The position numbers and the translations under genes are program-made. Below the pieces are notes generated by a model that did not search any database, was not told the DNA's origin, and was given only the letters and a program-made list of their open reading frames with translations. From a virus, in the IMG/VR virus record IMGVR_UViG_3300044922_000090, positions 1 through 21,737 of that record: a stretch of 21,737 bases of DNA, one strand, 5' to 3'. Shown here piece after piece: positions 1,359-21,737 of this stretch (position 1 is its first letter; every line of letters starts with the position of its first letter).

Positions 1359-1961
1359 TTAAATATCGTTTGGTTTGATAGTATGCAAAAAACTCTCAAA
1401 GGCTTGGGCAAACCCCGCCATCGCCACCTCTATCTCCGTATCCGTCGGCTGCATCCCGAAGTAGCCTTCAATGCTGAACCCGGTGAACTGGTCGCGATCC
1501 TCCCACACTTTGTCGTTCTCAACTTTGAACGATCCGAACCAACTGCCATCCTTCGCATCCTCGTAGCCGTTCGGTGGGTTGATGCCGCGCTCCCTGTCGA
1601 TCAGGTAGCTCTCAAACATATAGACACCATCGATGGCGGTGCTGTGTTCAGCGTTCACGTTGTGCTGGTTGCCCTGCTTAAAATATTTCTGCACCATCTT
1701 GCGGATCGTCTCCTTCTGGAAGATCACGAAGTACTCGCCCCTTGTTTTGTCGCGGCGTATGATCGGCGTATCTGCCAGCATCAACGGCCCTGTTAGTACG
1801 CGCTTTTCGCCTGTTTCGGTGAATCGCATCTTCTCCTTGCTGAACGCCTGAAATGGCCGCTCAATCGCAGGGGATTCAACGAGTGCGACGTAGCTGACGC
1901 CTTCGTCAACTTCATCAATGGTCATCAGGTAAACTGGTAGTTCCATAGCGTTAAATATCAT
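1359..1961 (-). CDS. XkdF-like prohead protease
   Basis: Two starts are possible: the ATG at 1961, which overlaps the tape measure stop by one base (TGATG) and gives 200 residues, or the ATG at 1946 (MELPVYLMTIDEVDEGVSYV), which gives 195 residues and fits the family's N-terminus better. The segment VSYVALVESPAIE, a His in NVNAEHSTAIDGVYMFES (His101 from the second start) and a Ser in DQFTGFSIEGYF (Ser158) match the XkdF-like serine protease family associated with phage prohead maturation. His and Ser are the expected catalytic pair. The gene lies directly before the scaffold-like and major capsid genes, as expected for an enzyme that trims scaffold and capsid during assembly. Its stop TAA is part of the GATATTTAAC box before the next gene. 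Confidence 0.8.
   Translation of the reverse strand: MIFNAMELPVYLMTIDEVDEGVSYVALVESPAIERPFQAFSKEKMRFTETGEKRVLTGPLMLADTPIIRRDKTRGEYFVIFQKETIRKMVQKYFKQGNQHNVNAEHSTAIDGVYMFESYLIDRERGINPPNGYEDAKDGSWFGSFKVENDKVWEDRDQFTGFSIEGYFGMQPTDTEIEVAMAGFAQAFESFLHTIKPNDI
1360..1367 (-). promoter_or_regulatory. GATATTTA start box, scaffold-like gene
   Basis: The minus strand reads GATATTTA, followed by 5 bases and the ATG at 1354. The box also contains part of the stop codon of the protease gene. It is one of four such boxes with identical spacing. Confidence 0.5.
1952..1959 (-). promoter_or_regulatory. GATATTTA start box, protease gene
   Basis: The minus strand reads GATATTTA, followed by 5 bases and the ATG at 1946. 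This favours 1946 over 1961 as the start of the XkdF-like protease. Confidence 0.5.
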
Positions 1962-4114
1962 CAGTTACCTAACTGTGCAAATTCGCTGATCCTACGCAAA
2001 CGCCCTGACACTGTGCGCACGTCGGATTCGACGACATACGCGCGCATACCTTGACCTTGCCCTGCGCCTGCACCTTCATTCGGGTTGGTTAGCTGGCTAT
2101 TCGGGTTCATCACTCCGCCTCCCGATGCGAAGCCTCCTGTCGTTGGAGGTGCTGATCCGCCGCCGCCTGTGCCAGCTGTGCCGCCTCCGCCGCCTCCTCC
2201 GCCGCCGCCAGTGATGCTCCTGACCTGCCCGATGCTCGTCGCTGCAATAGCTGCGATGCGTAGGCCAGCGTTAATCTTCGCCATCGTGCTTAGACTTAAT
2301 GCCTGCGTCACGCCAGCAGCACCAGCTGTCAAAGCGTTGGCAGGGTTAAGCGCTGCGTTGGCGTTGATGCCTGCCAGTTCCTTCTGCAAGTTTATAACAA
2401 CTTGCGCTATTGCCATGCCTTTCTCCAACGCCAGCGCCGCCAACATCACTGCCTTGCTCTTGCCTCCCAGTGATCGCATAATCTCAACGATGCTACCCGA
2501 TGCGGTGTTGTAGAACTGAACACGCGCCTCATTGTACGCCTTATCCCGCTGCAAGTCCTCTTGGCGTAGCTTTTCGCGCTCTGCGTATAGCTCATCTTCA
2601 ATTTGTATCTGATAGTCCAGCTGCGCCCTCTGCGCATCTAACTCCGCCTGATCCGCTGCATCTTGCTGCTCTTGAATCTTGGCCGTGCGTTCAGCGCGCA
2701 GTTGCGCTAACAATAGGTTGGTCGCCTCCTCGTTGCCCTGAACCTTGGCGAGGCGCTCTTCATAGCTGGCGTCAATCTGCTCCAACTCGCGCTCGTTGGC
2801 AGATAGGCTATTCTCCAGCAACACCTGCCTGCTGTCGGCAATGATGCCGTCAATTTCCTTCTGCTTTGCGGCGGCAGCTTCCCGCTCCTGCTCCTGTTTC
2901 CGCCTGCGCTCTTCAACGGCTTTCTCGCGCTCTTGCTGCCTCTTATCCGCCTCTTTTGCGGCAGCGTCCTGCTTTTCTAACTCTGTCTTTTTAATATAGC
3001 TTTCATACTGCGCTCGCAAGACGTTATGCTGATGCCGCGCCTCCGCCATCTCTTCCTCATCCTTCGCATTTTGCAGTCGCTTCCTGCTGATGTCGAACTC
3101 CATCGCGAAGACCTCCGCCTCGGTAGCGCCGCGCTCCTTGGCGATTTCTGCGGCACGCTCCATCGACTGAATCTGACCGTCAAGGTTCTCCTTCACCTTA
3201 ATGCCCAGAAATCCCTTGACCGCTGCCGTCAGTTTGTCGAAGTTGGCGATCAGCAAGCCAATGGCTACCACCGCCGCGCCGATGCCTGTCGCTATGAGCG
3301 CCAAGCGGAACGCCTTCATTGCCCCTGTGCTGGTGCCAACTGCCAGCGCATAGGCACGCTGCGCCGCCGCGTTCAGGTTGACCATCAGCGCAGAATCTTT
3401 ATTCAGCGCGTTGGCGACAGCCGTTGCACCATTGACCAACGCCAGCGCCGCCTGCACCTTCATCATTGCCTTCTGCACGTCCTCACTCTCCTCGCCGAAC
3501 AGCGCGGCTGCACCTTGCGCAACGGCGAAGCCGCCTGCGATGCCTTGAATTGCAGAGGTGAACGTGTCCAGCGTCCTTGTGTCCGACGCTAGCGCCTTGA
3601 CCTGTGCGCTTGTGTCACCGATAGCGTCCTTCAGCGATCCTGCCTCGGCAGCCATCCGCCGGAACTGGTCGGTGTTCTTCTGGCCCGCCGCTTCGAGGTC
3701 AAGCATCTGCTTTTGCAAGTCGCGGAGGCGCGCCTTTGCGGACTGCGTCGCTTTCTGGGTGTTGTCTTCAGCCTTAATATTGACGTTGACATCTTCATCT
3801 AATTCTGCTATCGCATCTTGCGCAACAGCGACGCCGCCGGCAACGTCTTGAAGTGATGATGTGAACTTGTCCAATGTCTGCGTACCAGACGACAGCGCCT
3901 TCACCTGCGCGCTCGTGTCGCCAATAGCGCTTCTTAAAGATTCTGCCTCGTTAGACATACGCCGAAACTGATCCGTATTCTTCTGCCCAGCCGCTTCCAG
4001 ATCAAGCATTTGCTGTTGCAATTCACGGAGGCGTGCCTTCGCCGATTGCGTCGCCTTCTGGGTGTCGTCTTCGGCTCTGACCTTGACGGTGATCTCTTTG
4101 TCTACTTCTGCCAT
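1961..4114 (-). CDS. Tail tape measure protein
   Basis: The protein has 717 residues. The first 200 or so contain two similar helical units (about residues 8-101 and 109-202) that share long identical blocks such as MLDLEAAGQKNTDQFRRM. A hydrophobic segment follows at about 271-292 (ALIATGIGAAVVAIGLLIAN), then a long charged coiled coil at about 340-530 rich in Glu, Arg, Lys and Gln, a second Ala-rich hydrophobic region at about 550-630, a glycine run at 636-645, and a C-terminal domain ending RRISEFAQLGN. Long coiled coil plus hydrophobic helices is the hallmark of tape measure proteins, which set tail length. The length is modest for the family. The start overlaps the stop of the upstream hub gene by one base (TAATG). 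The gene lies after the tail tip genes and before the protease, an unusual order. Confidence 0.82.
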   Translation of the reverse strand: MAEVDKEITVKVRAEDDTQKATQSAKARLRELQQQMLDLEAAGQKNTDQFRRMSNEAESLRSAIGDTSAQVKALSSGTQTLDKFTSSLQDVAGGVAVAQDAIAELDEDVNVNIKAEDNTQKATQSAKARLRDLQKQMLDLEAAGQKNTDQFRRMAAEAGSLKDAIGDTSAQVKALASDTRTLDTFTSAIQGIAGGFAVAQGAAALFGEESEDVQKAMMKVQAALALVNGATAVANALNKDSALMVNLNAAAQRAYALAVGTSTGAMKAFRLALIATGIGAAVVAIGLLIANFDKLTAAVKGFLGIKVKENLDGQIQSMERAAEIAKERGATEAEVFAMEFDISRKRLQNAKDEEEMAEARHQHNVLRAQYESYIKKTELEKQDAAAKEADKRQQEREKAVEERRRKQEQEREAAAAKQKEIDGIIADSRQVLLENSLSANERELEQIDASYEERLAKVQGNEEATNLLLAQLRAERTAKIQEQQDAADQAELDAQRAQLDYQIQIEDELYAEREKLRQEDLQRDKAYNEARVQFYNTASGSIVEIMRSLGGKSKAVMLAALALEKGMAIAQVVINLQKELAGINANAALNPANALTAGAAGVTQALSLSTMAKINAGLRIAAIAATSIGQVRSITGGGGGGGGGGTAGTGGGGSAPPTTGGFASGGGVMNPNSQLTNPNEGAGAGQGQGMRAYVVESDVRTVSGRLRRISEFAQLGN
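3509..3790 (-). repeat. Tape measure internal duplication, copy 2
   Basis: This copy encodes about residues 109-202 of the tape measure protein and is directly repeated relative to copy 1. The short joining stretch between the copies reads AELDEDV. Copy 2 leads straight into the rest of the protein (AALFGEESEDVQKAM), so it is probably the ancestral position and copy 1 the added one. That polarity is an inference. Confidence 0.88.
3812..4093 (-). repeat. Tape measure internal duplication, copy 1
   Basis: This copy encodes about residues 8-101 of the tape measure protein. It is offset from copy 2 by 101 residues (303 bases). Both copies contain TQKATQSAKARLR, MLDLEAAGQKNTDQFRRM and AIGDTSAQVKAL. 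Many synonymous positions differ between the copies, so the duplication is not recent, or it was gathered from diverged sources. Confidence 0.9.
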
Positions 4115-6375
4115 TACTTGCCTTTTATTGGGTTGACGATTTGTGGGTAATACTCACCTTGCACCTCCGCGTTGAGGTTGTAGTTGCCGACAGGGTTGAC
4201 CGACTGCGCGCTGAGCTCTGCGAGGTTTAAGATGCGGCGCAGCGTCACCCGGCACATGACGTTCTGCCCGATCCTGTAATCTTTTATCTCAAGCAACCGC
4301 CACTTGATGCCGTGCCAGTAGATCGGGATGCGGAAGTCAAGCGTCGCGATGTCGGTGACCGTCAGCAGGAATGTTGCCTCAACCTGCATCGCCTCCTTGC
4401 TTGCGATTTCTTCAATGTAGTTGCGCCAGTAGGTGTTGAATAGGTTATTGTTCGTATACGGCGTAAATCCTGCCTGACCATCCGGTAAGGCGAAGTAAAG
4501 CTGCCGCGGCATACCAAACGCCAAGTCCTGACTTGGGTTGTATGGGTTGTCAACGTGGCCGATATAGGGCAACGTGTCACCACTCACCCAGCTGCTTACC
4601 GTGGTCTTGAAGCCATCAATCCAAAGCCACGTTTCAACGCTGCCACTTGGCGACGGCTGCATCTTGACGTAGTTGTACTGCGCCAGCCTGTACCCTGTCT
4701 TCATCGTACGTATGCTGCCATCCGCTTCCACATCCCACGTCCTGCCCATGACGATGTTCGTGCGATACTGCGCAGGGATGACTGTCGCCGCCTTTGTTTC
4801 GATGACCTGCTCGCCACGTCCGTAGAAGTTGTCGGTGTCGTATTGCCTCGATCCATAGCCTGTCTGCCACGTGTTTCGGTACTGCTTGGATAGCGCCTCG
4901 CCACCATCGCGGTAGGCAAAGGTGAAGCGCTTGCGGAGTTCAGGATCGCCGCATATCATCGTCATCTCCGCGTTCTCGTCGGACTTCTGCGACCAATCAA
5001 CGACGCCGCTGGAGTAGAAGGTAGTCCACGGCTCAATGTAGATGAGTGACGGATCTTGCGGCGACTGGTAGAAATAGAGGTTAAACATCTTCTGCAAGTC
5101 GGCGAGAAGGTCAATCTGCAAGGTATCGGCAGGCAGCGCCGTGCGCATGTCCATTGATTGGCCGACAACGGAGAAGCGCTCCAGTAGGTTGATCTGCAAC
5201 GTACCTGCGTCCATCGTTGAGCCTCCTGTGTCGCAGTAAATCGTTATCTTCATCGTGCCAGCCGCCGGGAAGATGAGAGTCGCGTCAAGGGATAGAAGCC
5301 GCTCCGTAGTGCCAATCGTTTCGGTGACCTGAATGTTGTTGCCATACTGATCCTTCAGCACGTTGCCTGCATTGTCCTTTGCTGATATGATAAACGTAGT
5401 CGGATCAGCGCCGCCAGTGAAAATGCCTTCAAAGCGCAGTCGATATATGCCTATATATTGGCTGCTGCTGGTGTAAAGGCCAGTCGTAGTGTTGACCTTG
5501 CCGTCGCCACCGTTGAAGAATGGATCGCCAGTTTCGTCAAAGATTATCGTCTTTTCTTCGGCCCCATCCCACGTCACTAACTCGCTGCCAACATAGCACT
5601 TATCCGAGGCGCTGACATACGCGAATGCGTCGCCCGCGTAAGGGATGACCATACGCTCAAACTCCGCAGTGTTAAAGAAAGCCGACTGATAGCGATAGCC
5701 GTGCTGCGCGAAAATCAAGTCGACCATCTTCTTAACCCAAATGTTTGGACGCATCAACTCAATCGGGATCAGCCTATCGAAGATTGGCGTGATTGAACTG
5801 AACAGCGGCGCAAGCGGCCCTAATGGGTTGCTGACGTCGTAGCAGTGGAAGTGGCCAGCGGCGTCAATAATGCCGTAAACATATCCGCTCGCATCGCTGT
5901 AACTGTCATCCCAAGTGCCTGTGACCAGCGACACGCTGAAGGTGTGGTTCATGCCTGTCACTCCCACCGTGTCGACAAGCTTGACGTCAGCCATGTTGCT
6001 AAATAGCGCCACCTCCTCGCCGTAGATGGCGACCTCATAGGTCGCTTGGTTCTTCATGACCGTCATCGACAATAGCTGCATAGTGCCAGCGAATACCTGA
6101 ACGCCGTCACTCCACACCGCGCACTTGACCTGCTTGTTTGGTGTGAAGCCGCCAACGAAACTCTGCACGTTGTAGGCGTGGCGAAACGCGGCGTCGTTGC
6201 CCTTCGTAGATGGCAACGCAATCGTCTTGCTGAACGCACCCTTGCGCTTGGTGACGTCAGCCAAGTCCTGAACGCTGAAGGTGACCGCAATATCGGTGTC
6301 GCCAGAAACGTCAAGGTCAAAGCCTGTCGATGGCGCATCCGCGTCCGGGTAGCAGACGAACTTCACGTTACTCAT
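4114..6375 (-). CDS. Tail hub or tip structural protein
   Basis: The protein has 753 residues. The N-terminal region contains SVQDLADVTKRKGAFSKTIA followed by LPSTKGNDAAFRHAYNVQSF. This is characteristic of a large tail-associated protein common in Bacteroidota phages, usually placed next to the tape measure gene; I recall the pattern, no search was possible. The middle is beta-rich, with segments such as LQIDLLADLQKMFNLYFYQS at about residues 420-450. The C-terminal part (EIASKEAMQVEATFLLTVTD, then IYWHGIKWRLLEIKDY) resembles a baseplate or hub fold that receives the tail tube end. Its start overlaps the stop of the upstream tail gene by four bases (ATGA), and its stop overlaps the tape measure start, so the three genes are probably translationally coupled. 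An adsorption role is possible, but no receptor-binding domain is visible. Confidence 0.65.
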   Translation of the reverse strand: MSNVKFVCYPDADAPSTGFDLDVSGDTDIAVTFSVQDLADVTKRKGAFSKTIALPSTKGNDAAFRHAYNVQSFVGGFTPNKQVKCAVWSDGVQVFAGTMQLLSMTVMKNQATYEVAIYGEEVALFSNMADVKLVDTVGVTGMNHTFSVSLVTGTWDDSYSDASGYVYGIIDAAGHFHCYDVSNPLGPLAPLFSSITPIFDRLIPIELMRPNIWVKKMVDLIFAQHGYRYQSAFFNTAEFERMVIPYAGDAFAYVSASDKCYVGSELVTWDGAEEKTIIFDETGDPFFNGGDGKVNTTTGLYTSSSQYIGIYRLRFEGIFTGGADPTTFIISAKDNAGNVLKDQYGNNIQVTETIGTTERLLSLDATLIFPAAGTMKITIYCDTGGSTMDAGTLQINLLERFSVVGQSMDMRTALPADTLQIDLLADLQKMFNLYFYQSPQDPSLIYIEPWTTFYSSGVVDWSQKSDENAEMTMICGDPELRKRFTFAYRDGGEALSKQYRNTWQTGYGSRQYDTDNFYGRGEQVIETKAATVIPAQYRTNIVMGRTWDVEADGSIRTMKTGYRLAQYNYVKMQPSPSGSVETWLWIDGFKTTVSSWVSGDTLPYIGHVDNPYNPSQDLAFGMPRQLYFALPDGQAGFTPYTNNNLFNTYWRNYIEEIASKEAMQVEATFLLTVTDIATLDFRIPIYWHGIKWRLLEIKDYRIGQNVMCRVTLRRILNLAELSAQSVNPVGNYNLNAEVQGEYYPQIVNPIKGK

Positions 6376-7556
6376 AGCGCGGTGTTTTCATAGCCCACCT
6401 GAACGTCAACGCTGATCTGCTGCAACTTATCAACGACACGCTTGCGGACGTTGTAGGTGTCCGTCTTGACTACCACTGGAACGAGCTGCGTGCCAATCTG
6501 AATCCAGCACTCCGGTGAGTAGATCATCTCTTGAAGCCAGCTGAACTCCGCATCGGTGAGCCAGTCGCTGTTCAGCGTGTAGGTGTCGCGGTAGGTCACC
6601 GACCACTGCTTATCATAGACGTCATCGCCGTAGACGCTGGCGTTGTAGCCGTAGGTCTTGCGGTCAACATCGACGCGCTGCCTGTTCATCCGGGTAAAGG
6701 TGTAGCCGTCAATGCCGCCGTACATGTTGCGGAAAAAGACACGCAGGTCGTTGTATCGCTGGCAGTTGTCGATGACGTAAGTGTATGCAGCGGTTCGGCT
6801 GAACACGCTTGTATTCGTGCCTGCCGCGTTGAAAGTGACCAAGACTGCAATCTTGCCTCCATTCGCTGGGAAGTTGACACTCCCTGCGTTGCCGTCGGAA
6901 CACTGCGACGAGGTTAAGTTATAGACGCCATAAGGACCAGCGTTTATGATGTTGCTGATCGTCGACGTGCTGCCAGTCACCAGAAAGGCTGCACGCGGCG
7001 TGCCATCGTCGTAGGTGACGCGCAATGCAATCCCCGACACATTGGAAAGCACGCCGATGAAGTCGCTATCACCCGATCCAAGCGTTGAAGTCACTGGCCT
7101 GTTGCTGAACGTCTTAATCGCTGGCGTGTCACCCGACACCGTCGCCGCTATGTACGCACTCGGCGAGTAGGCCGCGTAGTCCTGCTGGCGAAACGCCGCC
7201 TGCCACGCGATAAGCGACGCTGATGCTGTGCCGCCTGTCGCCACCGTCGGAGGCGAGCCGAACTCCTCGCGGAAGGTCAGGTTGGCGTTGACTGCATAGC
7301 CCCCATCCTGCCAGCCGCTGATCAGCTGTGGTATTTTCGGTGCTATCAGCGTCTCCACGACCTTTGACACTCCGAAAAAGCCGTTGTTCGTCGTCGGCAG
7401 CTTGTCGCACTTCAAGCGCGCGGACGAAAGCGACCCCGACACGTCGCAGACATAGCGGAAGTTAGCGGAGGCGGTGTTGTTGCTCGACACGACCACGACG
7501 TCGCTGTTGCCGACTGGAAGCAGCGATGGCAGCGCGGATATTATAGTTATGCTCAT
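6372..7556 (-). CDS. Distal tail or baseplate protein
   Basis: The protein has 394 residues beginning MSITIISALPSLLPVGNSDV. It is rich in Ser, Thr, Asn and Gly and in predicted beta strands, has no signal peptide, and has no enzyme motif. The segments VVVVSSNNTASANFRYVCDV near the N-terminus and EFSWLQEMIYSPECWIQIG near the C-terminus resemble a tail protein family seen next to the large hub protein in Bacteroidota phages (recalled, not searched). The C-terminal stretch on cross-reading 'PVVVKTDTYNVRKRVVDKLQ' is a strand-rich end like those of distal tail proteins. The gene overlaps its neighbours by four bases on both sides, so it belongs to the tail operon. Its exact place in the tail tip is inferred. 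Confidence 0.6.
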   Translation of the reverse strand: MSITIISALPSLLPVGNSDVVVVSSNNTASANFRYVCDVSGSLSSARLKCDKLPTTNNGFFGVSKVVETLIAPKIPQLISGWQDGGYAVNANLTFREEFGSPPTVATGGTASASLIAWQAAFRQQDYAAYSPSAYIAATVSGDTPAIKTFSNRPVTSTLGSGDSDFIGVLSNVSGIALRVTYDDGTPRAAFLVTGSTSTISNIINAGPYGVYNLTSSQCSDGNAGSVNFPANGGKIAVLVTFNAAGTNTSVFSRTAAYTYVIDNCQRYNDLRVFFRNMYGGIDGYTFTRMNRQRVDVDRKTYGYNASVYGDDVYDKQWSVTYRDTYTLNSDWLTDAEFSWLQEMIYSPECWIQIGTQLVPVVVKTDTYNVRKRVVDKLQQISVDVQVGYENTAL

Positions 7557-8134
7557 ACGTTCATTGAAATTGATATTTCCTTGCCTACGACCTCGGCGAT
7601 GCTTTTGACCAACTCATCCATCTTCGCATCCGTAAGTACCGAATTGAGGAATGGCCGCCCCTTAATGCCGTCACGTTTTATTTTTGATGCAATAGAATAT
7701 GCGGCTTGTTCCATTGATGTTTCCGGGTCCGTATCGTCAAATTCTATCGTAACCGCCCGGTCAACAATCCATTTTTCTATTGCTTCAACGTGTTTTTTCG
7801 ACGGACGAATTCGCCGGAAGGTGAAAGGCGCACCCCTGTCTACGCTCACACCATTGACGCCGTACTCGACGAACTTCCAATACGACGCCATTTCCATCGC
7901 GACCTGTGCGACCTTCTGCTCTACCGGCAACTCCGCGAAGCCTACCGACTGACGCAGGTTAAGCGTAGCCTTGGCGTCAACGCGGTCGATGCCTTCAATG
8001 GTCAGCTTAATAACATCCTGCATCCACCGAATTAGCGCTGCGTTCACGTCAGGAGATCGCGACAGGCTGAACTCCTTGGTTACGTCAGTGCCAACGCCCA
8101 GTACGTCGCCCTCTAATTTTGCGGAAAATTTCAT
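7553..8134 (-). CDS. HK97 gp10-like tail completion protein
   Basis: The protein has 193 residues. The features that suggest the gp10-like family are LNLRQSVGF near residue 58, the YWKFVEYGVNGVSVDRGAPF segment at about 85-104, the PSKKHVEAIEKWI helix at about 111-123, and RDGIKGRPFLNSVL near 154-167. The GRPFL motif before a C-terminal helix is the usual ending. Members of this family act at the head-tail or tail terminator joint. The ATG at 8134 is preceded by the GATATTTA box with a 5-base gap. The gene follows the tail assembly chaperone after 33 bases and overlaps the next tail gene by four. The nearest alternative is a generic neck protein of the same fold. Confidence 0.7.
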   Translation of the reverse strand: MKFSAKLEGDVLGVGTDVTKEFSLSRSPDVNAALIRWMQDVIKLTIEGIDRVDAKATLNLRQSVGFAELPVEQKVAQVAMEMASYWKFVEYGVNGVSVDRGAPFTFRRIRPSKKHVEAIEKWIVDRAVTIEFDDTDPETSMEQAAYSIASKIKRDGIKGRPFLNSVLTDAKMDELVKSIAEVVGKEISISMNV

Positions 8135-8167: not shown

Positions 8168-8874
8168 CTACGGCATCGCCTTCATCAGCAGCAGCGCGTT
8201 CATGAACTCCCGCGCTGGCATGTTGAACACCTGATCCATGCGCAGCGGATCTTTGCCGGCCATGCGGTAGACCACACCGACCCAGCCGTAGTTCGGCTTT
8301 TTTACGCCTTGGCCGTTGTCGTCGTCTTCCCCTGATCCGTCAAAGACTTCCGCATAATCGTCAACAAAGGCTCTGAAAGCTGCAAAAAAAAAGCGGCATA
8401 ACCCCAAACGTCACTCATGTTCATCTGCAACATCGCCTCTGCGCGCTGCTTATGCCCCTTGCCATCGTACGCCTTCGGCCACCACTTCCACACCCTGCAC
8501 TCTCTCGAAAGCGTCGCCAAGATCAGGTGCAAGTTGTCAATCACCCCCTGCTCGCTACTCATGTCGTAGGAATACAACTCGACCAACTGCCCTGCGCTGA
8601 TTTCGTCAATGAACCACTCAAATTGATACCACTTTCCGGCAACCTTGGCGTGACGCTTGGCAGCCAGCGACGATAGCGATTTGCTTGCGGCGTTAATCTC
8701 ACCATACCGCTTGTTGACCTCCGCTATTGTCATTTTCTTGACCTGATCAATCGGCAGGTTGTCAAGAACGGCGATGACGCCGATCTTCTTGTCGCTGGTC
8801 GTGTAGATTGCGTTGGCCTCAATAGACACAATGCGTTGGAACTGGTCGACGGTGATTTTGTTGAGTAGGCTCAT
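8168..8874 (-). CDS. Tail assembly chaperone, frameshifted (GT-like) form
   Basis: A -1 slip on T TTT TTT within 8384-8392 joins 163 codons of the short form to a 72-codon extension that ends at the stop at 8168, giving 235 residues. The extension contains NYGWVGVVYRMAGKDPLRMD and PAREFMNALLLMKAMP, and looks like a real compact domain. On its own the extension frame has only a TTG near 8407 as a possible start and no ATG before the run, so translation by frameshifting explains it better than independent initiation. Another explanation is a length error in the nine-base run, which would make one continuous 235-residue gene. The coordinates given span the whole product; the two frames overlap by one base at the slip. 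Confidence 0.7.
8302..8874 (-). CDS. Tail assembly chaperone, short (G-like) form
   Basis: The protein has 190 residues from the ATG at 8874 (MSLLNKITVDQFQRIVSIEA). I prefer this start because the ATG overlaps the glycosyltransferase stop as ATGA. The protein is mostly helical, with EWFIDEISAGQLVELYSYDM near the centre and no enzyme motif. Near its end the codons GCT TTT TTT TTG form a run of nine T on the minus strand (8384-8392). A second open frame shifted by -1 begins without an ATG and continues past the stop. This layout of short frame, slippery run and overlapping downstream frame matches the G/GT tail assembly chaperones of lambda-like tails, which bind the tape measure protein and load tail tube subunits. 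The family call is inferred from layout more than from sequence. Confidence 0.72.
   Translation of the reverse strand: MSLLNKITVDQFQRIVSIEANAIYTTSDKKIGVIAVLDNLPIDQVKKMTIAEVNKRYGEINAASKSLSSLAAKRHAKVAGKWYQFEWFIDEISAGQLVELYSYDMSSEQGVIDNLHLILATLSRECRVWKWWPKAYDGKGHKQRAEAMLQMNMSDVWGYAAFFLQLSEPLLTIMRKSLTDQGKTTTTAKA
8384..8392 (-). promoter_or_regulatory. Predicted -1 ribosomal frameshift site
   Basis: This is a run of nine T on the minus strand containing the heptamer T TTT TTT in the chaperone frame. It lies 82 bases before the stop of the short form. I did not confirm a downstream stimulatory structure by eye. Confidence 0.65.
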
Positions 8875-9743
8875 GCTTTCAAGGCTTGGATGTATAATGC
8901 GTAAAGTTGCTTGCACACGCTTTCGGCGCGGTAGTCTGCAATGTCGCCGGGTACCGTCAGCATCTCGCGCTTTGTCACCGCCCCTTCAGCGTTGAAGTGA
9001 TAACTCATCACCGCCTTGCCGCACATCCACGCTTCAATCGTTGTCCTGCCGATGTGCAGGCCACAGGCAAAGTGACAACCCTTGACCAGCGTTTCGATAT
9101 TGCTCACCGCCTCGCAGTAGTGGATTGGGTAGCGACTTTTTAAGTCTTCGAGGAAATCGCCGTTGTTGTAGCCTACCAAGACAAAATGCCTGTCGTTATC
9201 ATTACACCACGCCGCCGCATCGTAAATCATAGCCTTGCGCATGTAGTCAAGCGTTCCGGCCAGTAAAACGTAACCGCCATCCTGTATTCCGTCCGTATTA
9301 AATCGGGTATAATCGACAGGGTTGTAGATGACGTGTATTTTATTCAATGGAACGCCATATCGCGCGTGTATTTCGTCTTTCTCATGCTGCGCTATGCTGA
9401 TGTACCTCTTGATGCTTTCGTGCTTCACAGGTCGCTCTAAATCGAAATAGACGCTGTGTATCGTCGCAACCTTCGGCGTTTGTGGGAATAGCGCACACAA
9501 GTAATCGGTGACCTGCTTGTGCTGAACGTGAATGACGTTGTAGGCTTCGCGCCCTGTCAACTCTGCAAATGGTTTAATCAGCACCCCCGCCATCTGCGCC
9601 TCTGCGATCATCGGGTAGTCCATGTATGGTGACGTGACCGTGACCTTATGCCCCATAGCCTTCAATCCCTTGGCAACCTGCAAGACGTAAAGTTCCGACC
9701 CTGTGTACTGGCGGAAGAACAATGATGCTATTAGTATGTTCAT
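8871..9743 (-). CDS. GT4-like glycosyltransferase
   Basis: The protein has 290 residues and reads like a small GT-B glycosyltransferase. The N-terminal Rossmann half starts MNILIASLFFRQYTGSELYV and contains ALKGLxAMGH-type sequence (VAKGLKAMGHKVTVTSPY) and IHVQHKQVTDYL. The interdomain region has HVIYNPVDYTRFN at about 137-149. The C-terminal donor half has YVLLAGTLDYMRK at about 158-169 and HIGRTTIEAWMCGKAV at about 230-245, which carries the conserved Glu of the EX7E-like donor site. It should move a sugar from a nucleotide donor in the cytoplasm. The start overlaps the acetyltransferase stop (ATGA), and the stop overlaps the chaperone start, so the enzyme is embedded in the late operon. 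The acceptor is unknown: capsid or tail protein, phage DNA, and host surface glycan are all possible. Confidence 0.8.
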   Translation of the reverse strand: MNILIASLFFRQYTGSELYVLQVAKGLKAMGHKVTVTSPYMDYPMIAEAQMAGVLIKPFAELTGREAYNVIHVQHKQVTDYLCALFPQTPKVATIHSVYFDLERPVKHESIKRYISIAQHEKDEIHARYGVPLNKIHVIYNPVDYTRFNTDGIQDGGYVLLAGTLDYMRKAMIYDAAAWCNDNDRHFVLVGYNNGDFLEDLKSRYPIHYCEAVSNIETLVKGCHFACGLHIGRTTIEAWMCGKAVMSYHFNAEGAVTKREMLTVPGDIADYRAESVCKQLYALYIQALKA

Positions 9744-10207
9744 GTCTTCTGTTTAATTGGTCGCGCTGGGTTGCCATACGCAAGAAAGCCATCGGGAATG
9801 TCACGCGTCACCACACTACCGGCGCCGATCAAAGCGTCAACGCCGATGCGCACTCCGCAGACAATCGTGCTGTTTGCCCCGACGCTGCATCCTTTGCAAA
9901 AGTAGGTAGATCGAAACCTGCCGTTGTTCTTCCAGTCGCCGTAAACGCTTGGGTAGTAGTCGTTGGTCGTCACCACATTCGGGCCGATGAATACATCATT
10001 GCCAATGATGCAGCCGTGGTAGATCAACGCGTGATTTTGGATTTTGACGTTGTTGCCAATTTGAACGCCAGTGTCAATGTGCGCGCCTTCGCCGATGACG
10101 CAGTTGTCGCCGATTTTAGCACCTGTGCGAATGTGAGCAAATGCCCATACTTTGACGTTTTCACCAAGTTCAACGCCCTCTTCAATTATTGCGGTTGGAT
10201 GTATCAT
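9740..10207 (-). CDS. WlbB/FdtC-like sugar N-acetyltransferase
   Basis: The protein has 155 residues and consists of hexapeptide repeats of a left-handed beta helix (IHPTAIIEEGVELGENVKVW and onwards). After the first coils comes NVVTTNDYYPSVYGDW, like the Asn-Asp-x-x-Pro loop of the WlbB/WbpD and FdtC acetyltransferases. The C-terminal coils read CSVGANSTIVCGVRIGVDAL, and the end GNPARPIK is the family signature. These enzymes transfer acetyl from acetyl-CoA to an amino group on a nucleotide-linked sugar. The gene starts 12 bases after the large terminase stop and overlaps the glycosyltransferase by four bases, so the pair probably acts in one pathway. At 155 residues it is shorter than most WlbB proteins but keeps the full core. 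The precise substrate cannot be assigned. Confidence 0.82.
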   Translation of the reverse strand: MIHPTAIIEEGVELGENVKVWAFAHIRTGAKIGDNCVIGEGAHIDTGVQIGNNVKIQNHALIYHGCIIGNDVFIGPNVVTTNDYYPSVYGDWKNNGRFRSTYFCKGCSVGANSTIVCGVRIGVDALIGAGSVVTRDIPDGFLAYGNPARPIKQKT

Positions 10208-10219
10208 GCTACAAATCTA

Positions 10220-11395
10220 CTACATGATCACGTACCTGCCTCCAGCGTTGGCTGATAGCTTGTTTAGCGCGACGTAACGCACCGCGTCAATGGCGTGGTT
10301 GTACCGGTCAATCGGCACACCCAACGACGCGCCAGTTCGATCCGTGTCCCAAGTGTAGTTCCTCAACTCCTTAATCAGGTTCGTCGATTCGCGCGTGACA
10401 AATAGCGGCTGACGTTTGAGGATGTCGATTGAGTTCCTGATGCTATCGGCGCCCTTCGTCGCCGGGTGTATGTTGAAGCCGAGGCGATGCACCTCCTCAA
10501 TGCTCTTGGGTTCAGCACTGTCAGCGATGATCGGCCACGACCTGCCAATGCCCAGCTTGCGTAGGTGTTCAGCGATGTCTTGGTTGGTCAGGCCTGATGA
10601 GTAGAGCAACTCATGCAGGAGGATAGTGCTGCCTCGCTTGTAGACGGCAACCACCGCCGTGGGATCGTTCGTGTACCCCCAGTCCAAGCCGATGGCTACC
10701 AGCTTATCACCAGCAAAGTCGATGCCGTCCACCTGCTGCCAATCGTCGAAGACCACGCCCTGCAATGATCCGACTTCACCCAAGCCGTAGACCTTCCACC
10801 AGTTCGCCCAGTACGTCGATGTCGCCGCCTTGACCTGCGCCGCTTCGATGTCGTCGCGGATCGTAGCCGGAAGCGCCTCATTGTCGCGGTAGGTCAGCAC
10901 AATCAACTCACTGTCTTGCTCTGCCAATACTTCGGTATGCGCCCAGAACTCCGACACAGGGTTGAAGTCGATGTAGATGGCTTCGCTCGTTCTGATGGCC
11001 AGCTGATGGTACGCCTCGAAGTCGATGTTGTTGGCCTCATTGATGTATAGCACCTGCCGCCGTGCGCCGCGTAGCTTCGCCTCTTGATCTGCACTGAAGA
11101 ACTCAATCGTGCTGCCGTTGGCAAAGGTGTATGTCAGCAGCGTCTTGTTCCAGCCTTCATCACGCCAGCGGTTCGTCCACTGCATGACCTTGCCAAAGTC
11201 CTTCATTGCGCCACGTCGTAGATGCGGGATTGATTCAGACACGACGCTGATCTCGGTCTTGGCCTTGGCTGCTATGTGGATCAGGACTGCCAGTATTGCG
11301 TATGTTTTTCCAGCACTTGTGCCGCCTTGGATGACTTTCTTTCGGGCAGTCATCCGCCGTATGCGTTTTATCGCGGTGGTGTGCTGGAAACTCAT
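10220..11395 (-). CDS. Terminase large subunit
   Basis: The protein has 391 residues and both expected domains. The ATPase half has the Walker A motif QGGTSAGKT (residues 23-31) and the Walker B-like strand QVLYINEANNI with Glu120. The nuclease half has the RNase H-like acidic residues: GLDWGYTNDPTAV (Asp238), IIADSAEPKSIEE (Asp292) and RYNHAIDAVRYV (Asp370). The protein packages DNA into the prohead through the portal, using ATP, and cuts the concatemer. The length and motif order fit the Terminase_3 type. The start overlaps the MazG-like gene stop as ATGA. The next gene is the acetyltransferase rather than the portal gene usually found there. Confidence 0.95.
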   Translation of the reverse strand: MSFQHTTAIKRIRRMTARKKVIQGGTSAGKTYAILAVLIHIAAKAKTEISVVSESIPHLRRGAMKDFGKVMQWTNRWRDEGWNKTLLTYTFANGSTIEFFSADQEAKLRGARRQVLYINEANNIDFEAYHQLAIRTSEAIYIDFNPVSEFWAHTEVLAEQDSELIVLTYRDNEALPATIRDDIEAAQVKAATSTYWANWWKVYGLGEVGSLQGVVFDDWQQVDGIDFAGDKLVAIGLDWGYTNDPTAVVAVYKRGSTILLHELLYSSGLTNQDIAEHLRKLGIGRSWPIIADSAEPKSIEEVHRLGFNIHPATKGADSIRNSIDILKRQPLFVTRESTNLIKELRNYTWDTDRTGASLGVPIDRYNHAIDAVRYVALNKLSANAGGRYVIM

Positions 11396-11931: not shown

Positions 11932-13164
11932 TTATTGCCCTGTTTTGTATGGTTGCCCATTGCGCTTGACTTCAAGGCTTGGGTCAAGTTTCATCATACG
12001 GTCAACGATGACCTGGCAGTACTTGGGGTCGTATTCAACCAAGTAAGCCTTGCGATTCATTTGATGACAAGCCACCATTGTGGTTCCGCTTCCACCAAAG
12101 CCGTCTGCAACAATATCTCCCTGCTTGGAACTATTGCCTATTTGATACCCAATTAGTGGAACTGGCTTCATTGTTGGATGTTCCTTGTTTTTAGATGGTC
12201 GGTCAAATTCAAGCACGGTTGTTTGTTTTCTCCCTCCTTTCCAAAAGTGACCAGACCCAACCTTCCAACCATAAAGACAAGGCTCGTGTTCTTTAACCCA
12301 TTCCCACGATTCAGCGGAAACCCCTTCCAAACAAGATTCATGCTTCCATTGGTAGTCCTGACGACCCATAACTAAACAATTCTTTATCCAAACGAGGCAT
12401 TGCTTTAATAATAAACCGCTTGCCATAAACTGATTTCTAAATTGAGTTTCAGGTGCGCCTGGTGGCGACCATACATACCAAGGCGAACCCGCCTTTGAGT
12501 AAGAATTTAATGCAGTAAAAAAATCGTACAAAAACTTATCAAAATCTTCATCTTTTTGTTTGTCATTTACGATTTTAAGTTTATCCTTTGTCTTTCCTTC
12601 ATAGTCCACATTGTAGGGAGGGTCAGTCACAACAAGGTCAGCCATTTGATTGTCAAACAACTTTGCAAAAGTGTCGGTTTGCGTACTATCCCCGCAAAGC
12701 AAACGATGCGGTCCAATTTCAAACAAATCACCCAGCACGATGTCGGTCGTGATTTGGTCGGGTATCTCGTAGTCATCCTCCTCCGCTTCCAATTCCTTCG
12801 GGTCGTCAAATGCAGGAATGTCAAGACCCCACTCCTCCAACTGCTCGGCATCCCACTCATTCGCCAGCATCTCCCAATCCCACTCCCCGAAGCCGACGTT
12901 GTCTTTGATGATAAACTGCCGCTGCTTATCCTCATCCCAGTCCACAATCTCAATAGGTACTTCCTTCCATCCTGCCTCCTTCATCGCCTTGAGCCGCATG
13001 TTGCCGCCCAGTACGATCATATCGCTATTCACGACAACAGGCCGCACAGTTGCCATCTCTGGCAGTTCTTTTAGCGACTGCACCAGCTTGGCAAACTTCT
13101 CATCCTTGATTACTCGCGGATTGTTCGGGTTCGGCTTTATGTCTTTTATCGGTGTCAGCTTCAT
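11932..13164 (-). CDS. ParB-like domain fused to DNA methyltransferase
   Basis: The protein has 410 residues. The N-terminal part (about 1-115) looks like a ParB/sulfiredoxin-type domain, with IKPNPNNPRVIKDEKF at 9-24 and DMIVLGGNMRLKAMKEAGW at 48-66. The C-terminal part is a beta-class adenine-N6 or cytosine-N4 methyltransferase: catalytic motif DPPY at 181-184, target region in between, and the SAM-binding motif FGGSGTT at 356-362 after HPTMKP. It probably modifies phage DNA, perhaps to escape host restriction; no restriction enzyme is nearby. The AT-rich middle of the gene (about 12070-12720) differs sharply from its GC-rich ends, which suggests segmental recombination. The start overlaps the small upstream gene as ATGA. 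Confidence 0.9.
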   Translation of the reverse strand: MKLTPIKDIKPNPNNPRVIKDEKFAKLVQSLKELPEMATVRPVVVNSDMIVLGGNMRLKAMKEAGWKEVPIEIVDWDEDKQRQFIIKDNVGFGEWDWEMLANEWDAEQLEEWGLDIPAFDDPKELEAEEDDYEIPDQITTDIVLGDLFEIGPHRLLCGDSTQTDTFAKLFDNQMADLVVTDPPYNVDYEGKTKDKLKIVNDKQKDEDFDKFLYDFFTALNSYSKAGSPWYVWSPPGAPETQFRNQFMASGLLLKQCLVWIKNCLVMGRQDYQWKHESCLEGVSAESWEWVKEHEPCLYGWKVGSGHFWKGGRKQTTVLEFDRPSKNKEHPTMKPVPLIGYQIGNSSKQGDIVADGFGGSGTTMVACHQMNRKAYLVEYDPKYCQVIVDRMMKLDPSLEVKRNGQPYKTGQ

Positions 13165-21294: not shown

Positions 21295-21737
21295 TTAAAG
21301 GGTGGATAAATATTTTAAGCCTGATTCGTACTTGGCGATGTCCCAGTTCTCGCGTGCCTCCAGCTTGAATCGTTGCTTGAGATCGGGTACTTTTTCGCAC
21401 AGCATGTGGTGGTACTGCATACGGATGTCGTTCAGCATCTGCTCTTTGCTGAGTGCCATTGCCTGCTCCTCCGCTGATGCGATGCTTGTTTCCAAGCCAA
21501 TACCGAAGTTGCCGAGCGCCCTTCCCCATGCGGAGGACTCGCAGTTCTCGACGTAGCTGGTCTTGTTGATAGCGCTACTGGTGCGATCTTCCTGTGCCAT
21601 TCCGCTTGCGACGATGCGGCCATTGGGATCGGTGATGATTGCGTTCAATACGCAGAAGTCGGGTGTCAGCTGTACGACTTCTGTGGTGAGGGAGTGATCA
21701 GCGAAGTTTGCGCGGAAGTATTTGAGGCGCTCGACTA
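21295..21737 (-). CDS. ERF-like recombination protein, 5' end outside window
   Basis: The frame is open to the right edge, so the true start lies beyond 21737. A TTG at 21648 is not the start, because homologous-looking sequence continues upstream (VERLKYFRANFADHSLTTEV). The visible 146 residues contain NAIITDPNGRIVASGMAQED, then SSAINKTSYVENCESSAWGR and ALGNFGIGLETSIASAEE. The motif NKTSYVENCESSAWGRALG is typical of phage ERF-type and related annealing proteins, which pair single strands in recombination. The C-terminal part is helical and acidic/basic mixed (EQMLNDIRMQYHHMLCEKVP). The family is recalled, not searched; some proteins with this motif are simply called unknown phage proteins. 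Confidence 0.7.
   Translation of the reverse strand, partial: VERLKYFRANFADHSLTTEVVQLTPDFCVLNAIITDPNGRIVASGMAQEDRTSSAINKTSYVENCESSAWGRALGNFGIGLETSIASAEEQAMALSKEQMLNDIRMQYHHMLCEKVPDLKQRFKLEARENWDIAKYESGLKYLSTL

Follow-up and report, generated by a model that had tools for sequence, protein, structure and literature searches.

In serotype conversion by temperate phages, gtr cassettes provide membrane flippase and glycosyltransferase (GT) functions that act on the host O-antigen in lysogens. Alternative glycan-modifying genes occupy one genomic slot there, as in the locus described here, but the family listing for a near-complete 33-kb relative with 46 ORFs, which gives the first 25 each of its 30 Pfam and 53 PHROG families, contains no integrase, flippase or modified-base enzyme. 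In mycobacteriophages, phage-encoded GTs glycosylate the capsid and tail tube (Freeman 2023, as cited in PMC12619734 and PMC12363180). This virion glycosylation is described for Che8 (gp110), Corndog (gp38) and Myrna, and PMC12363180 names capsid and tail tube as acceptors in both virulent and temperate tailed phages; phage-encoded GTs are common to that system and to the present locus. In contrast to the mycobacteriophages, the phage here is of Bacteroidota type and combines a conserved GT near the capsid with an exchangeable cassette elsewhere in the late operon.

The GT-containing host-recognition regions of pelagimyophages (PMC7029224) resemble this locus in that aquatic lytic phages carry variable sets of glycan genes close to structural ones; those regions span tens of kb and hold many unrelated genes, whereas the slot here measures 0.6–2.5 kb, has exact borders, is filled by a single functional class in close relatives, and has a separate invariant GT alongside it in the genome. 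The N-acetyltransferases WlbB, WxcM-N and QdtC belong to the same fold family as the first enzyme of the cassette, which differs in being phage-encoded and in standing beside a GT in a phage without other amino-sugar pathway genes. By TerL the nearest isolated phages (50%) are the Flavobacterium phages Fpv5–Fpv11/FPSV; their capsid gene also precedes the portal gene, but the interval from TerL to capsid/portal contains no annotated glycan gene in them. One TerL fragment, 98% identical, is found in a Chitinophagaceae MAG and is a weak pointer to Chitinophagaceae as the host, and the contigs and MAGs related to the record suggest a lake-water source.

The window, meaning the whole stretch of 21,737 bp that was analyzed, is a virus record classed as linear, and all genes discussed for the locus lie on the minus strand. 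The large terminase subunit TerL (10220–11395; PF17288, 2.9e-15; phrog_2, 1.3e-39) forms the upstream flank and is followed by a 12-nt leader (10208–10219), an acetyltransferase gene (AcT, 9740–10207), a GT gene (8871–9743) and the gene for tail assembly chaperone G (8302–8874), with ATGA overlaps both between AcT and GT and between the GT stop and the chaperone start. Both intact ORFs, their order and their ATGA coupling between TerL and the chaperone are as the initial annotation had described them, and the enzyme families agree with its reading of a sugar-modification cassette coupled to a late tail gene. The downstream late module (1359–8134) contains gp10-like, g6372, g4114, tape measure, XkdF protease and scaffold-like g734 genes; it runs on past the window through capsid, tail tube, a second (core) GT, an Lcl_C-domain protein and portal, as read in contigs G005 (also designated L108) and L107. 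The large tail protein g4114 (4114–6375) exists as two alleles 44% identical in phages whose neighboring genes are far more alike, and this allele pair is possibly a host-range locus. Upstream of the terminase, a ParB-methyltransferase fusion gene (11932–13164) is missing or replaced in many close relatives and forms a second variable site.

AcT is a 155 aa protein of the WlbB/WxcM-N-like left-handed β-helix sugar N-acetyltransferases (Hexapep, 9.3e-28), with the hexapeptide β-helix match covering its full length. Its best solved relative is WlbB (3mqg, 1.3e-37), which matches in sequence from end to end (residues 2–151), followed among solved structures by WxcM-like 4mzu (1.6e-30) and then by other sugar N-acetyltransferases. 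Asn82 of AcT aligns with the Asn of the TN motif in WlbB (...FTNVYNP...), which we take to be an active-site residue in WlbB with Asn82 as its counterpart. The second cassette protein is a 290 aa GT4-type (GT-B) enzyme with a GT4 N-terminal domain (PF13439, 2.5e-15) and a short C-terminal half; it displays the C-terminal E-x-x-x-C-G donor-site motif and basic residues of that family; the IEAWMCGKxV motif and R169/K170 are invariant in an alignment of 10 relatives down to 54% identity. A sequence search of solved structures with the GT gives no match, and the Foldseek top matches of its low-confidence predicted model (pLDDT 58) are GT-B enzymes (1.2e-6, TM about 0.4); a search of isolated phages, by DNA and by protein, also gives no match. 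AcT is 94–99% identical among distinct close sequences with a dN/dS of 0.02, and purifying selection acts on both AcT and GT (dN/dS 0.02–0.16, 14–15 distinct sequences).

The borders of the cassette are sharp on both sides. Comparison of 47 contigs around the TerL stop gives same-type/different-type identities of 0.96/0.94 at −40, 0.90/0.81 at −20, 0.88/0.68 at 0 and 0.80/0.25 at +20; within TerL, identity between types is equal to that within types up to the final 20 nt, drops to 0.25 immediately past the leader, and returns at the chaperone start codon, placing the cassette edges at most about 20 bp from the flanking genes. The leader TAGATTTG (10212–10219) is kept after the TerL stop across all cassette types as TAnATTTG and marks the left exchange boundary; the right boundary lies at the chaperone start, where the ATGA junction is common to all four cassette types A–D. 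TAnATTTG is similar to the −7 box of Bacteroidota; reading the leader as a promoter was rejected, as the window contains TANNTTTG 9 times where 9.2 are expected, showing no enrichment. The gene at 8874–8302 is identified as a tail assembly chaperone because its T9 slippery run (8384–8392), with a continuing −1 frame that gives the T extension (8168–8407) by G-T frameshift, is kept in 95/95 homologues, some only about 40% identical; the database query for this gene spanned 8302–8868, six bases short of the true start.

Searches with TerL, GT and chaperone recovered more than 100 related contigs, of which 57 close relatives with both flanks make up the slot census. The slot holds sugar-tailoring-type enzymes in 57/57 and is never empty, with a smallest TerL–chaperone gap of 600 bp in any relative that has both flanks. 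The lone methyltransferase is the most frequent content (27/57), followed by the acetyltransferase and GT4 pair (20/57), a UDP-galactopyranose mutase (UGM) with a GT8-like partner (7/57), a GT2 with a methyltransferase (2/57) and the mutase with DUF3431 (1/57). The single-gene cassette encodes a 195 aa protein assigned to Methyltransf_24, a broad Pfam family with members that also act on non-sugars. The mutase matches solved UDP-galactopyranose mutases at 5e-123; its partner, a 255 aa DxD-type GT, has a conserved TDGD motif and a weak predicted model that matches LgtC. In a more distant clade (TerL about 74%) the slot contains 2.0–2.5 kb of other GT and methyltransferase genes, and several ORFs there have no family match, hence the statement that all contents are sugar-type enzymes applies to the close relatives only. 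The initial annotation had proposed comparing the same locus across related phages, and had named identical genes fixed in every relative as an outcome that would speak against it; the comparison instead finds the cassette in some close relatives and different sugar enzymes in others, with the slot filled in all of them.

The expectation in that annotation that a portal gene would normally stand at the position of the cassette does not hold. Contig G005 matches the window at 100% identity in all shared genes compared, and it extends further; after the XkdF protease and scaffold-like gene, its order is capsid, tail-tube-like, core GT, Lcl_C-domain protein and portal (phrog_33693, 6.8e-37), and the more distant contig G004 has an identical capsid-to-portal order. 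Two distant relatives lack the cassette: L282, from a Bacteroidetes MAG, and L283, a presumed prophage on a Salinimicrobium contig. Both have tail genes directly after TerL, and no portal gene directly follows TerL in either. Displacement of the portal by the cassette is therefore rejected: the cassette occupies a late-module junction that distant relatives have without it, and no portal was displaced. The presumed prophage, from Salinimicrobium sediminis (L283:9995–19392), keeps the TerL–tail–tape measure order.

The core GT (phrog_7162, 7e-40) is located between the tail-tube-like and Lcl_C genes in all 61 contigs with a capsid gene and more than 1.8 kb of downstream sequence. It is over 90% identical in close relatives, while capsid, tube and Lcl_C each occur in two divergent alleles; GTs of phi92-like coliphages, at about 30%, are among its nearest isolated matches. 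A search for the core GT in the distant cellular-genome relatives, run without a positive control, gave no match. The capsid alleles (L108:9353–10339 and homologues) are about 70% identical on backbones otherwise over 90% identical, those of the tube-like protein beside it about 66%, and capsid and tube are swapped independently. The Lcl_C-domain protein adjoining the core GT (L108:6784–7590 and homologues) has two alleles, at 97–100% and about 80%, and may be a candidate acceptor or glycan-binding protein; among the six long contigs of close relatives that span the two loci, Lcl_C allele I is found with cassettes A and D (4/4) and allele II with B (2/2), numbers too few to test.

From these comparisons of sequence, the slot between TerL and the chaperone is a lineage-wide cassette exchange site, which is new here. 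Cassette type changes at least 17 times on the TerL tree (shuffled mean 21.8) and at least 15 times on the chaperone tree (shuffled mean 24.1); the gp10 tree requires 18 changes against 19.5 when shuffled and is not different from random. Nucleotide distance is weakly linked to cassette type by PERMANOVA at the chaperone pair (R2 0.16–0.18, p 0.0005) and at g6372 (R2 0.24, p 0.004), with no association at gp10 or TerL. A cassette tied to one virion-protein allele was sought with PERMANOVA and trees, and none was found with gp10, capsid or scaffold, the capsid-side genes being represented by few long contigs; cassette type follows no virion gene allele, and therefore no protein stands out as the substrate.

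Types A, B and C are all present in a second clade (TerL about 80%). Identity between the clades is 71% for the acetyltransferase, 56% for GT_A, 68% for the methyltransferase and 60% for GT_C, the same range as the backbone (core GT about 71%, portal 67%, chaperone 43%), and because cassette and backbone divergence coincide in this way the polymorphism is considered either about as old as the clade split or exchanged early; the mutase, up to 96% identical between clades, marks a recent inter-clade transfer. Across the cassette proteins dN/dS is 0.02–0.29. Different types co-occur in single metagenomes: A with B in 3300031758 (L013, L015), 3300042340 (L093, L116) and 3300046010 (L092, L123), and B with C in 3300046002 (L017, L124). 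The near-complete relative encodes an ERF-type annealing protein, a candidate driver of cassette exchange; in the window, a start-truncated ORF at 21295–21737 resembles an ERF-type single-strand annealing protein.

On balance, this exchangeable locus probably tailors glycans in a family of lytic Bacteroidota phages, and the window carries one of its alleles; the core GT would start and the cassette finish a glycan whose most likely carrier is a virion protein. The core GT would put the first sugar on the acceptor, and the cassette between TerL and the chaperone would complete the glycan. The WlbB-like enzyme of the window is predicted to acetylate a host-derived amino-sugar nucleotide, which the GT4 enzyme would then transfer; in relatives with the lone methyltransferase the slot would methylate the glycan, and in those with the mutase and GT8-like enzyme it would add galactofuranose. 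Cassettes would be swapped whole, by recombination between phages. The lone methyltransferase allele makes sense only with another enzyme supplying the glycan. The cassette should be translated with the late proteins because it is plugged between fixed flanks and always ends in the chaperone-start ATGA, and for this reason a virion protein is the most likely acceptor. The GTs of these phages are encoded with structural genes, the core enzyme between tube and portal (61/61) and the cassette enzyme in an operon stretch coupled to the chaperone; enzymatic specificities, the order of sugar addition and the virion target are inferred.

The main rival reading, judged rather unlikely, is that the cassettes and core GT alter host-surface polysaccharide late in infection, blocking superinfection and the sticking of progeny to debris. 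GT4, GT2 and GT8-like enzymes, UGM and acetyl- and methyltransferases are all enzyme types of O-antigen and capsule synthesis, the hypervariable GT regions of lytic pelagimyophages have been interpreted as modifying host lipopolysaccharide (PMC7029224), and the variability would fit phage–phage competition; however, a membrane-linked polymerase, flippase or acyl carrier is not seen among the families listed, the lack of an integrase among them leaves no long-lived converted host, a late chaperone-coupled position leaves little time for surface remodeling, and in every relative the core GT has capsid, tube and portal genes as its neighbors. A virion acceptor is somewhat favored over the host surface, on the grounds of late position, chaperone coupling, a lytic gene set, a conserved core GT near the capsid and tail-tube genes, and the lack of an integrase and of modified-base genes among the families listed.

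There is a small chance that the slot contents serve no common purpose and are passive morons, or host-derived metabolic genes, that a permissive gap tolerates. Moron insertion sites typically show such variable content at one fixed intergenic position, but a slot that is never empty in 57 close relatives and holds one functional class throughout, with an old polymorphism common to two clades, low dN/dS and translational coupling kept, argues against such tolerance. Glycosylation of phage DNA against restriction, an option raised by the initial annotation, is very unlikely: acetyltransferase, UGM and lone methyltransferase alleles fit it poorly, and no thymidylate-synthase-like, hydroxymethylase or other modified-base gene appears in the family listing of the 33-kb relative, although phage GTs acting on DNA are well known and the window does carry a ParB-methyltransferase gene.

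The locus is best read as a variation on known phage glycosylation with a serotype-like architecture. More tentatively, one invariant GT may start the glycan while mutually exclusive cassettes, older than the clade split and shuffled by recombination, set the outer sugar; these would constitute coexisting virion "serotypes" under frequency-dependent selection in lakes, with adaptive immunity not the driver. Phage virion glycosylation has been shown in a few mycobacteriophages, and antibody evasion is the explanation given there. If the present locus glycosylates virions, environmental phages vary their surface sugars by whole-cassette swaps at one slot, with several types per sample; this would imply a selective pressure other than antibodies, for example host receptors, decoys, competing phages or grazers, and would make the reason for phage sugar coats testable through natural alleles on nearly identical backbones.
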